From NCBI RefSeq assembly GCF_000223905.1, contig NC_015948.1, positions 2,790,001 through 2,854,000 of the forward strand: a stretch of DNA of 64,000 nt, given 5' to 3'. This stretch comes from Haloarcula hispanica ATCC 33960 (GTDB lineage Archaea > Halobacteriota > Halobacteria > Halobacteriales > Haloarculaceae). Under the pieces are notes generated by a model. The model worked only from the letters and a program-made list of their open reading frames with translations, was not told the origin of the DNA and ran no database searches. Below, in pieces: positions 324-6,072 of this stretch; the first letter of the stretch is position 1, and each line of letters opens with the position of its first letter. The position numbers were made by a program, and so were the translations under genes.

Positions 324-1622
324 TTAGCCCTCGATGAAGCCGCTGGATTCGTACGCGTGGTCCACGACTTCGAACACCTGCAGCAACCCGACGGGATCAC
401 CGTTCTCGTCGAGGTCGATCGGGCCGCTCACGCCGGTGTAGTCCACGTCCGATGGCGAGCCACCGTTGGCCAGAATCTCGTGTGCATCCTCATAGGTGGT
501 CGCCTCCTCGCCTTCGGGACGAGTCACGTCACGGACGACCTCCATGAGCGCCGAGCCGGTGAACTCGTCGGCGGCTTCGATAGCGAGTGCGCTGACGACC
601 ACCGCGTCGTAGGCGTACGCCGACCACGACGTTGGTTCCTCGCCGAAGCGCTCCTCGAACTCCGAGACGAACGCCTGATAGTTCTCGGCGTCCTGTGGGA
701 CGCTCGGCACCACGGCCTTCATTCCGTCGAGGCTGCCCTCGGGAGCTGATTCGAGGACTTTCGGGCCTTTGACGCTGTCCCCACCGTACCAGGCGGCCTG
801 ATCGGTGACGCCCAGGTCGAACGCCTCCTGGGACATCGTTGCGAACTCCGGCTGGTAGGTGATGAACACCCACGCGTCGGCGTCGGTGTTAGCCATCGAG
901 GAGATGGTGCTACTGTAGGAGGACTGGCCCTGGTCGTGGGGTTCGTTGTAGACGATTTCTCCGTCGTAGGCCTCGATAAAGGCCTCGCCGACGGACTGCC
1001 CGTAATCGTTGTTGATCCAGGCCAGGGCAGCGGACTCGTTACCGTCTTCATCGAGGAGCGTTGAGATCGCCTCCGCCTGTGCCTTGCCGGCCGGCGGCAT
1101 CCGGAGCAGGTCCGGGAAGTTCGTCAGGTTCGGGCTGGTGCTGTTCTGGCTGATCTGGACGACATCAGTGTTCTGGACAACGCTCTCGTGGATGGCCGTG
1201 CTGACGCCGCTCCCGACAGTACCGATGAGCAGCGGAACTTCTTCCTGATTGACGAGTGTCTGGGCTGCACTGACTCCACCCTGGCTCGTACTCTGGTCGT
1301 CCTGCTGTGAGATCGCCAGTTCGCCGCCACTAACACCGACGGAGTTGATATCGTCAAGCGCGATTTCCTTGCCGCGCTGGTTCCGCTGCCCGAACGCGGA
1401 CAGCGAGCCGGAGAGGCTGTCCACCATCCCGATGGTGTAGGTTTCAGAGCCCGAATCCGTCGAGGTGTCCGTCGATTCACCGTCGCCGCCGTCACCACCG
1501 TCGCCACCGTCACCTTCGTCGGGAGCACCACCGGAACAGCCGGCGAGGCCGACGAGTCCGGCACTGGCAGCGGCTTTGATTACGCTTCGCCTGTCGATCG
1601 AAGACTTGTCATGGTCGTTCAT
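324..1622 (-). CDS. ABC transporter substrate-binding lipoprotein, Leu/Ile/Val-binding family
   Basis: A 432-residue exported binding protein. The N-terminus has a twin-arginine motif (IDRRSVIK, residues 9-16) followed by a hydrophobic stretch and a lipobox LAGC with the lipidated Cys at residue 29, the usual haloarchaeal Tat-lipoprotein arrangement. A Gly/Asp-rich linker (about 30-60) leads into a periplasmic-binding-protein type 1 fold (about 62-425), with YTIGMVDSLSGSLSAFGQ opening the domain as in LivJ/LivK and amide-binding proteins. It is transcribed ahead of the LivH-type permease (31-base gap). It is divergent from the proline racemase gene, with 140 bases between them that hold a palindrome and a motif shared with the aldehyde dehydrogenase promoter. 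The substrate is inferred only from neighbours. Confidence 0.92.
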   Translation of the reverse strand: MNDHDKSSIDRRSVIKAAASAGLVGLAGCSGGAPDEGDGGDGGDGGDGESTDTSTDSGSETYTIGMVDSLSGSLSAFGQRNQRGKEIALDDINSVGVSGGELAISQQDDQSTSQGGVSAAQTLVNQEEVPLLIGTVGSGVSTAIHESVVQNTDVVQISQNSTSPNLTNFPDLLRMPPAGKAQAEAISTLLDEDGNESAALAWINNDYGQSVGEAFIEAYDGEIVYNEPHDQGQSSYSSTISSMANTDADAWVFITYQPEFATMSQEAFDLGVTDQAAWYGGDSVKGPKVLESAPEGSLDGMKAVVPSVPQDAENYQAFVSEFEERFGEEPTSWSAYAYDAVVVSALAIEAADEFTGSALMEVVRDVTRPEGEEATTYEDAHEILANGGSPSDVDYTGVSGPIDLDENGDPVGLLQVFEVVDHAYESSGFIEG

Positions 1623-1665
1623 GGTATACTGATATCCTTTTTCGTAAGTCCCTGTATAACCCTGT

Positions 1666-1688
1666 CACCGTCCATGGTAGGCACCATG
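1666..1688. promoter_or_regulatory. Candidate operator in the transporter/racemase divergent region
   Basis: Bases 1673-1678 and 1683-1688 form a perfect 6-base inverted repeat (CATGGT / ACCATG, spacer AGGC). The overlapping 13 bases 1666-1678 (CACCGTCCATGGT) are the exact reverse complement of 4501-4513, just upstream of the P5C dehydrogenase gene. A site common to two genes of one catabolic pathway is a reasonable regulator target; the HTH-10 protein at 3644-4360 is the obvious candidate, by inference only. Confidence 0.4.
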
Positions 1689-1762
1689 TTCTGGACGGCG
1701 TACGGAAAGCCGTCAATTAATACTTCTGGAACGCCTTTCCCGCATAGAGTATCGCTACGGCT

Positions 1763-2734
1763 ATGGAACGAACGGAGTTTATCACGGTAGACACGCATAC
1801 GGGCGGAGAGCCGACGCGCATCGTACTCGACGGCATCGAGGCCGACACACTCGCCGGAGAGACCGTCCGGGAGAGACGCGACCGGTTCGCAGCCACAGCA
1901 GACGGCGTCCGAAAACTCCTCATGCAGGAGCCCCGCGGACACGCGGATATGTTCGGGGCGGTCCCGGTGCCCACCGACCGGGCCGACCTCGGGGTCTTCT
2001 TCATGGACACTGACGGCTATCTGGACATGTGTGGCCACGGCCTCATCGGGGTCGTGACCGCACTCGTCGAACGGGGCGAACTCCCCGAAACGCGGGAACT
2101 GACCGTCGAAACCCCGGCCGGGCTGGTCGACGTGACGGTCGAAATAGCTGACGGCGTCGTCCACCGCGTCGCGTTCGAGAACGTCGACAGTTACGTCTGT
2201 GAGACGATTACCGTCGAACAGGACGGCATCCCGGTCGAGGCTCGTATCGTCTATTCCGGGAACTACTTCGCCGTCGTCGACGCTGAGAGCCTGGGCGTCA
2301 CGCTCGACGGCGAGGAAGCCACGCAGTGTATCGAGCCCGCACTGGCACTCCGCCGAGCAGTCAACGACGTCGCACCCGACGACCCAATCACCGGTTCGTC
2401 AGTGACCGTCTCGGCAGTCGAACTCACCGCCGGCGGCGACAGCGACCGGAGCTGTGTGGTGTTCGCCGACGGATCTATCGACCGCTCTCCCTGTGGGACG
2501 GGGACGTGTGCGCGGTTGACGCTTCACCACGTCGACGGTGACCTCGCTGTTGGCGAGCGTGTCGAAGTGACCGGCCCGGTGGGGTCGGCGTTCGAGGGGT
2601 ATATCAGCGAGACAAACGTCGACGACGGTGTCACCGTGACCAGCCCGGTCGTTTCGGGTACAGCGCATATCACGGGCGATCACACGTTTTACCGGGACGA
2701 CGACGATACGCTCGGCAGTTTCACACTCACTTAA
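1763..2734 (+). CDS. Proline racemase / 4-hydroxyproline epimerase family protein
   Basis: A 323-residue member of the proline racemase family, of normal length. Both catalytic cysteines are present: Cys90 in LDMCGHG and Cys244 in RSPCGTGTC. The Cys/Cys pair fits racemases and 4-hydroxyproline 2-epimerases; the dehydratases of this family usually replace one Cys with Thr or Ser. It starts at the ATG that gives MERTEFITVDTHTGGEPTR, the conserved family N-terminus. It is followed after 71 bases by proline dehydrogenase, with a T6 run at 2756-2761 between them. Proline versus hydroxyproline specificity cannot be decided here. Its likely role is conversion of a D- or trans-hydroxyproline isomer ahead of oxidation by neighbouring enzymes. 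Confidence 0.9.
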   Translation: MERTEFITVDTHTGGEPTRIVLDGIEADTLAGETVRERRDRFAATADGVRKLLMQEPRGHADMFGAVPVPTDRADLGVFFMDTDGYLDMCGHGLIGVVTALVERGELPETRELTVETPAGLVDVTVEIADGVVHRVAFENVDSYVCETITVEQDGIPVEARIVYSGNYFAVVDAESLGVTLDGEEATQCIEPALALRRAVNDVAPDDPITGSSVTVSAVELTAGGDSDRSCVVFADGSIDRSPCGTGTCARLTLHHVDGDLAVGERVEVTGPVGSAFEGYISETNVDDGVTVTSPVVSGTAHITGDHTFYRDDDDTLGSFTLT

Positions 2735-2755
2735 TTTCAGGCCATGGAGGAGGAC

Positions 2756-2761
2756 TTTTTT
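2756..2761 (+). terminator. T6 run after the racemase gene
   Basis: Six consecutive T bases lie 22 bases after the racemase stop codon in GC-rich DNA. Archaeal RNA polymerase terminates at such T tracts. No strong hairpin precedes it. Confidence 0.45.
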
Positions 2762-2805
2762 GGTAGGGGGTGCGTTTAGGCTCATATAGTGGCGTAGTTT
2801 CGATA

Positions 2806-3642
2806 ATGATTCCGCCGATAGCGAACAACTTCGTCGCCGGGGAGACAGCCCCGGGGGCGCTCGACCACGTCGCTTCGCTCAACGACGACGGCGTCAAGGG
2901 CATCCTAAATCTGTTAGGCGAACACTACGACGAGCGCCAGCCCGCCGACGAGGACGCAGACCAGTACACCGAGTTAGTCAAAGAAATCGACAGGAGCGGC
3001 CTCGACTGCGCTATCTCGGTCAAGCCCTCGCAGATCGGCCTCGACGTTGGGGACGACGTGTTCGTCGAGAACCTCGAACGGATCGTTGCGGCGGGCGACG
3101 ACCACGGCGTCTTCGTCTGGGTCGACATGGAGGATTACACGACGACCGATGTGACCCTCGACGCGTACGAACGACTCGTCACGGACCACGAGGGCGGCGT
3201 CGGCGTCTGTACACAGGCAAACCTCAAGCGGACGCCCGAGGACCTCGAACGGCTCGCTCCTCTTCCCGGGAAGGTCCGGCTGGTCAAGGGAGCCTACTCC
3301 GAGCCCAAAGAGGTCTCTTACAAGAAAAAAGAGCGCGTCAACGAAGCCTACCGCGACTGTCTCGAACTGATGTTCGAGGAGTTCGATGGCGGTATCGGCG
3401 TCGGTAGCCACGATCCGGCGATGATAGACTACGCGAAGGACCTCCACGACGAGTACGGCACTGACTACGAAGTGCAGATGCTAATGGGCGTCCGCGACGA
3501 CGCCCAGCGCGACCTCGCCGCGGAGGGCGTCCCGATGTGGCAGTACATCCCCTACGGCGACAAGTGGTTCTCCTACTTCTACCGGCGCGTCCGTGAACGC
3601 AAAGAGAACGCGCTGTTCGCTGTTCGGGCCGTTCTGAGCTAA
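2806..3642 (+). CDS. Proline dehydrogenase (FAD-dependent)
   Basis: A 278-residue single-domain proline dehydrogenase, oxidising L-proline to pyrroline-5-carboxylate. It has the (beta/alpha)8 PRODH features: DCAISVKPSQIGLD, VWVDMEDYTTTD, RLVKGAYSEP and GSHDPAMIDYA, and ends with YIPYGDKWFSYFYRRVRER, the substrate-binding YxxYxxxRRxRE-type motif. I chose the ATG at 2806 (MIPPIANNFVAG) because an in-frame GTG at 2770 would add 12 unconserved residues. It is a separate protein, as in archaea and Gram-positives, not the bacterial PutA fusion; the partner P5C dehydrogenase is at 4549. The stop codon is one base from the stop of the convergent regulator gene. Confidence 0.93.
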   Translation: MIPPIANNFVAGETAPGALDHVASLNDDGVKGILNLLGEHYDERQPADEDADQYTELVKEIDRSGLDCAISVKPSQIGLDVGDDVFVENLERIVAAGDDHGVFVWVDMEDYTTTDVTLDAYERLVTDHEGGVGVCTQANLKRTPEDLERLAPLPGKVRLVKGAYSEPKEVSYKKKERVNEAYRDCLELMFEEFDGGIGVGSHDPAMIDYAKDLHDEYGTDYEVQMLMGVRDDAQRDLAAEGVPMWQYIPYGDKWFSYFYRRVRERKENALFAVRAVLS

Positions 3643-3643
3643 C

Positions 3644-4360
3644 TTACTGGTCCGGGTCGAGTAGTTTCGCTTCTGCTTTCCGGAGGTGTTCGAGCAGCGT
3701 CGTCTTCGAAACGCCGAGTTTCGACGCGAGTTCGCGCGTCGAGATGCCCCGCGGCCACGCGTAGTAGTCCTCCTGTCTGGCGAGTTCGAACGCCTCGCGC
3801 TGGCTGTCCGAGAGTCTGTCCATCCGCCGGAGTTGCTGCGGATTGCCGCCGCCGGCGGACGTGATTCGAGTCACTTCGATATCGGCCGACTGTTCCTCGC
3901 GGATCTCGTCGAGGAGCGACTCGGCCTCGTCGCGGGAGTCCGGGAAAAACACCGGCCAGTGCTCGCGGCCGTGGCGGACGCGAACCGGGTCGTTGTGGAT
4001 GAACCCCCGCGAGAGAAGGCTGTCGCTAATGGTGTTGTCCGGGTCGTACTCGACGAACAGCTCGCGGGTCGTGTTCCCCGGCGACGAGGACGTGCCAGTC
4101 GCGCCGTGGCGCTCGCGTAACTCCAGCACGGAGTCGGTCAGCGACGAATCACGGGTCGCGTCGATGAGATCCTCGACGTCGTTAATACTGTCTGCGTACG
4201 CCGTGAACAGGCCCTTCACGCTGCCGTTCTGGGTGTTGTACACGCCGTGAGCCAACAGGCCAGCCGCGGTCTGATCGGTGACTTCGAGGGTCCAGCAGTC
4301 AGGATGCCAGATGCTCAGGGTGAGCTGGAGTCCCCCGTGTTCTGATTGTGCTTCACTCAT
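3644..4360 (-). CDS. HTH-10 (bacterio-opsin activator-like) transcriptional regulator
   Basis: A 238-residue haloarchaeal regulator. The C-terminal 55 residues form an HTH-10 domain (DSQREAFELARQEDYYAWPR followed by TRELASKLGVSKTTLLEHL), the DNA-binding part of Bat-type activators. The N-terminal 170 residues are the variable sensor half seen in this family; no cofactor motif is evident. It sits inside the proline catabolic island, tail-to-tail with proline dehydrogenase (one base apart) and divergent from P5C dehydrogenase, so a role controlling these genes is likely but inferred. Its own upstream region (4361-4548) is shared with the dehydrogenase promoter and carries two CCATGG cores at 4446 and 4502. 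Confidence 0.85.
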   Translation of the reverse strand: MSEAQSEHGGLQLTLSIWHPDCWTLEVTDQTAAGLLAHGVYNTQNGSVKGLFTAYADSINDVEDLIDATRDSSLTDSVLELRERHGATGTSSSPGNTTRELFVEYDPDNTISDSLLSRGFIHNDPVRVRHGREHWPVFFPDSRDEAESLLDEIREEQSADIEVTRITSAGGGNPQQLRRMDRLSDSQREAFELARQEDYYAWPRGISTRELASKLGVSKTTLLEHLRKAEAKLLDPDQ

Positions 4361-4500
4361 ACTGGGCGCCCTCCGTATGAAGGGGTGCTAAAGACAGTCA
4401 CGATATGGACGCAGATAAAGGTGCGGTTCATAAGGGGAACACCGACCATGGGAGATAATGCCGGATTGTAGAGGATATATCAGGTTATTGCCGACCCCTG

Positions 4501-4513
4501 ACCATGGACGGTG
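4501..4513 (+). promoter_or_regulatory. Shared 13-base motif upstream of P5C dehydrogenase
   Basis: ACCATGGACGGTG here equals the reverse complement of 1666-1678 in the transporter/racemase control region, 13 of 13 bases. It lies 36 bases before the dehydrogenase ATG, where it could overlap the promoter. A shorter CCATGG core also occurs at 2742 (before proline dehydrogenase) and 4446. Confidence 0.45.
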
Positions 4514-4548
4514 GAACATATTGGTGGGGGACGCGTACAGTACCTACC

Positions 4549-6072
4549 ATGAGTACAGACGACTCACGGCGACACTACATCGACGGTGAATGGACGACAG
4601 GCACCGGCGAGGAAACGTTCACAAGTCAGAACCCGGCTACCGGCGAGGCGCTCGCCTCGTTCCACCGCGGAACCGAGGCCGACGTCGACCGCGCGCTGGC
4701 CGCGGCAGAAGACGCCTACGACGAGTGGCGCTCGCTCTCGCACATCGACCGCGCAGAGTACCTCTGGGACATCTACCACGAGCTGCGTGACCGCCACGAG
4801 GAACTCGGCGAAATCGTCACCATGGAGTGTGGCAAGGAGATCAGCGAGGGGCTGGCCGACGTGACCGAGTCCTGGCACATGGTCGAGTGGGCCGCCGGCA
4901 ACGCCCGCCACCCCCACGGCGACGTGGTACCGTCCGAGATCGCCAGCAAGGACGCCTATATGCGGCGCAAGCCGAAGGGGGTCGTCGGCTGTATCACCCC
5001 GTGGAACTTCCCGGTCGCAATCCCGTTCTGGCACCTCGCAGTGACGCTGGTCGAGGGCAACACCGTCGTCTGGAAGCCCGCCGAGCAGACCCCGTGGTGT
5101 GCCCACATCATCGCCGAGATGTTCGAGGACTCGGGCATCCCGGACGGCGTGTTCAACCTCGTGCAGGGCTACGGCGACGCCGGCAACGCCATCGTCGAGG
5201 ACGACCGCGTCGAGACGGTCCTCTTTACGGGCAGCGCCGAAGTCGGCCACAAGATCGCCTCCAAGGTCGGCGGCGAACCCGGCAAGATCGCCGCCTGCGA
5301 GATGGGCGGAAAGAACGCCGTCATCGTCACGGAGGAAGCCGATCTCGATATCGCCGTCCACTCGGCCGTGATGTCCAGCTTCAAGACGACCGGCCAGCGC
5401 TGTGTCTCCTCGGAGCGGCTCATCGTCCACGAGGACCTCTATGACGAATTCAAGGAGCGGTTCGTCGACATCGCCGAAGACATCGCCGTCGGCGACCCGC
5501 TGGAGGAAGACACCTTCATGGGGCCGCTCATCGAGCGAGACCAGGTCGAGAAGTTCAAGCGCTACAACGACCTCGCTCGCGAGGAGGGCGCGAACGTGCT
5601 CGTCGACCGCGCCGACCTCGATGCCGAAGAGATTCCCGAGGGTCACGAGGAGGGCCACTGGGTCGGCCCGTTCGTCTACGAGATCGACTACGACGAGGAC
5701 CTGCGCTGTATCAACGAGGAAGTGTTCGGCCCCCACGTCGCGCTGCTTGAGTACTCGGGTGACTTCGATCAGGCGCTGGAGATGCACAACAGCGTCGACT
5801 ACGGCCTCGCCGGTGCCATCATCTCCGAGGACTACCGCCAGATCAACCAGTTCCGCGACGAAGCCGAAATCGGCCTCGCCTACGGCAACCTCCCGTGTAT
5901 CGGCGCGGAGGTCCACCTGCCATTCGGCGGCGTCAAGAAGTCCGGCAACGGCCTCCCGAGCGGCCGCGAGGTCATCGAGGCCGTCACCGAGCGCACCGCC
6001 TGGACGCTGAACAACTCCAAGGACATCGAGATGGCACAGGGGCTGTCGGCGGACATCATCACCGATGAGTAA
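4549..6072 (+). CDS. 1-pyrroline-5-carboxylate dehydrogenase (aldehyde dehydrogenase family)
   Basis: A 507-residue NAD(P)-dependent aldehyde dehydrogenase. Visible family residues are Asn153 in PWNFPV, the glycine motif FTGSAEVG (227-234), the general-base Glu251 in ACEMGGKN and the catalytic Cys285 in TTGQRCVSSE. Context argues for oxidation of glutamate semialdehyde/P5C to glutamate, the second step after proline dehydrogenase. The start at 4549 (MSTDDSRRHYIDGEW) is preferred over an in-frame ATG at 4504, which would add 15 Trp/Gly/Thr-rich residues and lies in the control region. The 3' end overlaps a zinc-ribbon microprotein gene by eight bases, so the two are probably cotranscribed. Other aldehyde substrates are possible. 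Confidence 0.88.
   Translation: MSTDDSRRHYIDGEWTTGTGEETFTSQNPATGEALASFHRGTEADVDRALAAAEDAYDEWRSLSHIDRAEYLWDIYHELRDRHEELGEIVTMECGKEISEGLADVTESWHMVEWAAGNARHPHGDVVPSEIASKDAYMRRKPKGVVGCITPWNFPVAIPFWHLAVTLVEGNTVVWKPAEQTPWCAHIIAEMFEDSGIPDGVFNLVQGYGDAGNAIVEDDRVETVLFTGSAEVGHKIASKVGGEPGKIAACEMGGKNAVIVTEEADLDIAVHSAVMSSFKTTGQRCVSSERLIVHEDLYDEFKERFVDIAEDIAVGDPLEEDTFMGPLIERDQVEKFKRYNDLAREEGANVLVDRADLDAEEIPEGHEEGHWVGPFVYEIDYDEDLRCINEEVFGPHVALLEYSGDFDQALEMHNSVDYGLAGAIISEDYRQINQFRDEAEIGLAYGNLPCIGAEVHLPFGGVKKSGNGLPSGREVIEAVTERTAWTLNNSKDIEMAQGLSADIITDE

Follow-up and report, generated by a model that had tools for sequence, protein, structure and literature searches.

The window analysed here is a 64,000-nt stretch of Haloarcula hispanica ATCC 33960 (NC_015948.1, 2,790,001-2,854,000), and all coordinates refer to it unless a contig is named. 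A livK-like ABC substrate-binding protein is encoded on the minus strand at 324..1622 (PF13458, 137 bits). It is followed on the plus strand by a proline racemase / hydroxyproline epimerase (ProR; 1763..2734, PF05544, 251.7 bits) and a proline dehydrogenase (ProDH; 2806..3642, PF01619, 104 bits against a cut-off of 27). An HTH-10 regulator lies on the minus strand at 3644..4360 (PF04967), and a probable P5C (glutamate semialdehyde) dehydrogenase (P5CDH; PF00171) on the plus strand at 4549..6072. The latter scores below the cut-off of the NCBIfam P5CDH models (328.7 bits vs 648), and it is given this name because it is adjacent to ProDH. An assay of one member of the ProR family, HjProR of H. 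japonica, has been published (PMC4364671).

Two of the intergenic regions share a 13-mer, CACCGTCCATGGT, which is exact at 1666-1678 on the plus strand and at 4501-4513 on the minus strand. The initial annotation had called chance sharing very unlikely, and the numbers agree, as only ~0.0007 to 0.003 exact matches are expected between both regions. There is no third exact copy in the whole genome of 3,890,005 bp. The shorter sequence CCGWCCATGG is found 12 times genome-wide, three of them inside this 2.85 kb (Poisson P ~1e-7).

An alignment of 14 Haloarcula loci with some 20 loci of more distant genomes reveals that the 13-mer is part of a wider 14-base palindrome with the consensus CCGACCATGGTCGG, and that the motif turns into the perfect palindrome in distant relatives. 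The dyad is centred on CCATGG itself; the CATGGT/ACCATG repeat at 1673-1688, which had been stressed earlier, was rejected as an element since relatives do not conserve it. Three candidate operators follow from this alignment, none with an assigned strand. O1 (CCGTCCATGGTAGG, 1668..1681) overlaps the first copy of the 13-mer and is invariant at 14/14 columns in 13 Haloarcula loci. O2 (CCGACCATGGGAGA, 4442..4455) is the CCATGG core noted before at 4446 and is a real conserved site; 11/14 columns and all six core positions are invariant in 14 Haloarcula loci, and relatives have the perfect CCGACCATGGTCGG. O3 (CTGACCATGGACGG, 4498..4511) overlaps the second copy of the 13-mer, with 13/14 columns invariant in the close clade. 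By contrast with these near-invariant sites, the O2-O3 linker (4456-4490, 35 bp) is only 6% invariant. Haloarcula genomes space O2 and O3 by 58 to 71 bp; with no fixed helical phase, a fixed looping distance was rejected.

For a scoring matrix, 55 unique sites were taken from other clades, leaving out the close clade to which the window belongs. Scanned over the 64 kb, it places O1, O2 and O3 at ranks one to three (21.3, 14.7 and 14.6 bits for 1668, 4442 and 4498), while the fourth score in the window is 10.1 and the maximum over ten block-shuffled windows is 10.9. The CCATGG at 2742, which had been listed as a further core before ProDH, does not hold up. It is found in 1/29 ProDH upstream regions of the genus, in this genome only, and is outside the top-scoring matrix places of the window; we regard it as a chance occurrence.

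It is extremely improbable that the two copies agree by chance, or that they serve as start-codon or leader-peptide signals. They do both read ATGGACGGTG and could open small reading frames, with the ATG at 4504 in frame with P5CDH and the frame of the ATG at 1676 (minus strand) overlapping the livK start. However, the 13-mer is unique to this locus genome-wide and the palindrome is conserved, while most relatives have CCATGGTCGG or CCATGGGAGG as the proximal sequence, i.e., the apparent codons change and the palindrome stays. Relatives also have stops in the 4504 frame (genomes G004 and G023), and a P5CDH start at 4504 was therefore rejected in favour of 4549. This start is located 37 bp from O3, a spacing common to nearly all genomes.

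The position of the operators relative to the promoters is constant. Probable TATA boxes, identified from the sequence, are found 8 bp from O1 for livK (TTATAC, 1654..1659, minus strand), 8 bp from O2 for the regulator gene (TTATGA, 4428..4433, minus strand) and next to O3 for P5CDH (CATATT, 4517..4522, plus strand). For P5CDH, the distance from the operator edge to the ATG is 37-38 bp in 25/25 genus genomes and 36-40 bp in 18/19 distant genomes, and the AT content is 100% at offsets 8-11 from the operator edge in the 25 genus promoters. The livK promoters have 41-45 bp to the ATG in 20/21 cases and an AT peak at offsets 9-13 (21 promoters). The regulator gene has a variable ATG distance (32-81 bp), with the AT peak constant at offsets 9-12 (32 promoters). 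Overall, the AT peak at offsets 8-13 corresponds to the TATA box, which places the operators about 8 bp before it, and the position of the starts is consistent with leaderless transcripts.

A site directly upstream of BRE/TATA fits the position of an archaeal activator. The opposite sign, in which the HTH-10 protein would bind the same palindrome as a repressor and be released by proline or P5C, is in our view unlikely. Catabolic regulons are often repressed, a protein bound next to BRE/TATA could block TFB, and the regulator probably controls itself via O2. Against this, the site overlaps neither the TATA box nor the start, the fixed spacing of ~8 bp fits archaeal activators, and Bat, NarO and DmsR are activators, although NarO represses dms with nitrate.

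O1, located 45 bp before the ATG of the livK-like gene, clearly fits with that gene, and it is possible that the racemase is controlled from O1 as well. Only short remnants of the racemase gene are left in one Haloarcula genome, and the gene was not found at the H. salina locus; the flanking operators are kept in both. In Haloarculaceae archaeon H-GB1-1 the racemase has, unlike in Haloarcula, a palindrome-like site of its own (CCGTACATGGGCGG) that directly precedes a TATA-like stretch. Three Haloarcula genomes carry insertions of ~0.9-1.9 kb between the HTH-10 gene and ProDH.

The palindrome is restricted to this locus. Its strict form, CCGWCCATGGWCGG, has 21 copies in 32 genus genomes, against two for the reversed control, and each of the 21 either belongs to the proline locus or immediately precedes a proline-clade HTH-10 gene. 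A search of 195 genomes from across the order gave 11 copies of the perfect palindrome. Nine belong to the proline locus, and the remaining two to one similar non-proline sequence that two genomes have.

The site also follows the regulator. P5CDH was located in 30 genomes of the genus, and over this full set the site before it is present in 25/25 with a proline-clade HTH-10 gene and in 0/5 without. These counts include closely related, hence non-independent, genomes, and the five negative genomes form one group on the glutamate dehydrogenase (GDH) tree (support 72/79), so that the genus contrast counts as about one event. The order-wide comparison set P5CDH genes with an adjacent HTH-10 gene, selected by this adjacency from several families, against 20 from genomes in which no HTH-10 match reached E<=1e-50. 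The site is found at 20/20 of the former and 0/20 of the latter. The former sites have 10-13 of 14 matches, while the best in the regulator-less set is 10/14 without the full core; at a threshold of at least 11/14 matches the counts are 19/20 vs 0/20 (Fisher 3e-10). Both states occur within the same families (three, for example), which makes several independent gains or losses likely. The motif was also looked for in relatives with the same gene order and was not missing there. The regulon under the HTH-10 protein suggested by the initial annotation thus finds strong support in the comparison of genomes, as the site is conserved where the regulator is beside P5CDH and absent where the regulator is absent.

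The C-terminus of the regulator (residues 183-234) matches the HTH_10 domain PF04967 with 58.9 bits (cut-off 23.1). In the structural model (pLDDT 81), two beta-alpha-beta-beta-alpha-beta lobes are followed by a helix-turn-helix, and the C-terminus has a sigma-region-4-like fold (Z ~9 over 60 residues). Modelled alone, the N-terminal part reaches pLDDT 90 and is two-lobed and ferredoxin-like. Its best match among solved structures is Ta1207 from Thermoplasma (5m86; Z 8.5, 131 residues, rmsd 3.5), followed at Z 5-6 over ~74 residues by further ferredoxin-like domains, ACT among them. The matches to an ACT amino-acid sensor are weak (2qmw, Z 6.2, 74 residues, rmsd 2.9). From these models it is plausible that the N-terminal domain may act as a small-molecule sensor. 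A Pfam scan found no PAS or GAF sensor domain of the kind present in Bat, and therefore the regulator is not a Bat orthologue; its membership in HTH-10 is unaffected, since NarO and DmsR also lack these domains.

Phylogenetically, the HTH-10 proteins of proline loci form one supported clade (99/94). H. hispanica has two more HTH-10 paralogs with ~46% identity and a similar recognition helix, and the one from the arginine locus nests inside the proline clade in the tree. This paralog (46%) ends an apparent arginine/ornithine catabolism and transporter cluster on contig C3 (1175000-1188000), in which no CCATGG palindrome occurs and an inverted repeat, TGTAAATTGTTTCAATTGTTACA, precedes an aminotransferase-like gene. 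The second paralog (45%, C3:922000-934500) is located beside apparent ornithine cyclodeaminase and dipeptide epimerase genes; these neighbours hint that the HTH-10 subfamily may regulate amino-acid use generally. The operator palindrome was not found at either paralog locus.

These proteins raise the question of whether the palindrome is real but bound by another factor, such as one of the paralogs. The recognition helix SKTTLLEHLRKAE is nearly constant across the HTH-10 family, and the arginine-locus paralog belongs to the proline clade. On the other hand, regulator-less genomes lack the P5CDH site despite having more distant HTH-10 proteins, and the arginine-locus paralog has no such palindrome in its own region. 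We consider another binder quite improbable.

The ProDH promoter has the TATA-proximal half of the site only, the other half being missing. In the window this half-operator, TTGGTAGG, is at 2760..2767 (plus strand), 38 bp from the ATG, and a probable TATA-like element (TTTAGG, 2775..2780, plus strand), recognized from sequence and alignment, begins 7 bp after it. The half-site, TTGGT[AC]GGG, is found 37-38 bp from the ProDH ATG in 23/24 HTH-10-positive genomes and in 0/5 HTH-10-negative genomes. In the HTH-10-positive genome G023 the main ProDH is without the half-site and P5CDH keeps its site. The locus is split over two contigs in this genome. One has ProDH next to P5CDH; the other has a second ProDH and an HTH-10 gene (53%) that is preceded by a perfect palindrome.

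One of the nine CCGWCCATGG copies elsewhere in the H. hispanica genome is located 37 bp before the ATG of a gene that we take to be GDH from its sequence. CCATGG is present in the GDH promoter of 19/24 genus genomes with the regulator and 0/6 without, and the operator edge is 37 bp from the ATG in 13/14 genomes. Because P5CDH makes glutamate, GDH is the next step of the pathway, and it is probably an additional predicted target of the regulon in Haloarcula; the site is partial, with its left half unmatched, so that the assignment is weaker than for the other genes. Further regulon members in this genome were rejected, as the remaining copies are mostly in coding or start-codon contexts. By position, only the three window sites and the GDH copy look regulatory among the 12.

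We suggest that CCGACCATGGTCGG is, very probably, the operator of the neighbouring HTH-10 regulator, and that it serves to activate the promoters of proline import and catabolism. Bound directly before BRE/TATA, probably as a dimer, the protein would activate the livK-like transporter, P5CDH and its own gene, O2 pointing to probable autoregulation; ProDH would be activated through its half-site and, in Haloarcula, GDH probably as well. The signal may be proline or a proline product, sensed by the two-lobed ferredoxin-like N-terminal domain. For binding, sign and signal alike, we infer this from comparative evidence. If correct, a large class of archaeal regulators with few described operators gains a predicted site, its targets and a promoter geometry, in a genus that is open to genetic manipulation. 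It would also predict how proline breakdown is switched on in haloarchaea and, in Haloarcula, tie it to GDH. No earlier account of an HTH-10 proline regulon was found in the open-access literature searched.

Bat, NarO and DmsR, which have a similar helix-turn-helix type, have been described as activators, and NarO additionally represses dms when nitrate is present (PMC10062603). The closest comparison is with the NarO system, which shares an HTH-10-type regulator without PAS and GAF and a CATG-centred palindrome. Denitrification promoters of Haloferax volcanii contain the palindrome CGAA-N4-TTCG, which nirK transcription is reported to require (PMC5746218). The motif CGAAYATDKTYG of H. mediterranei precedes three start codons at a distance of 66-79 nt, and promoter activity drops when it is mutated, significantly at two of the three; this species has no NarO, and the source did not identify the binder (PMC10062603). 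In the proline system the operator lies closer to the ATG, at 36-45 bp for all genes other than that of the regulator. The half-sites, CGAA-CATG-TTCG for the NarO-linked palindrome and CGAC-CATG-GTCG for the proline operator, differ only at their fourth base, while the regulons are anaerobic respiration and proline catabolism, respectively. This comparison suggests a simple, testable recognition rule. It can be speculated, tentatively, that haloarchaeal HTH-10 operators have a common grammar with a CATG centre, ~8 bp to the TATA box and CGA-X half-sites in which X would name the regulon, C for proline and A for anaerobic respiration; under such a grammar, sequence could be enough to predict which genes each of the ~25 HTH-10 relatives in a genome controls.

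Bat and the bop upstream activator sequence of Halobacterium resemble the proline system in the C-terminal helix-turn-helix type, in activation from an upstream site and in a small local regulon. However, Bat carries GAF and PAS/PAC sensors, where the proline-locus regulator has its two-lobed ferredoxin-like N-terminus. In the put regulons of bacteria, ProDH and P5CDH are controlled by PutR, PutA or Lrp-type proteins, and neither the regulator families nor the operators are known to be related to those of the HTH-10 system at the proline locus.
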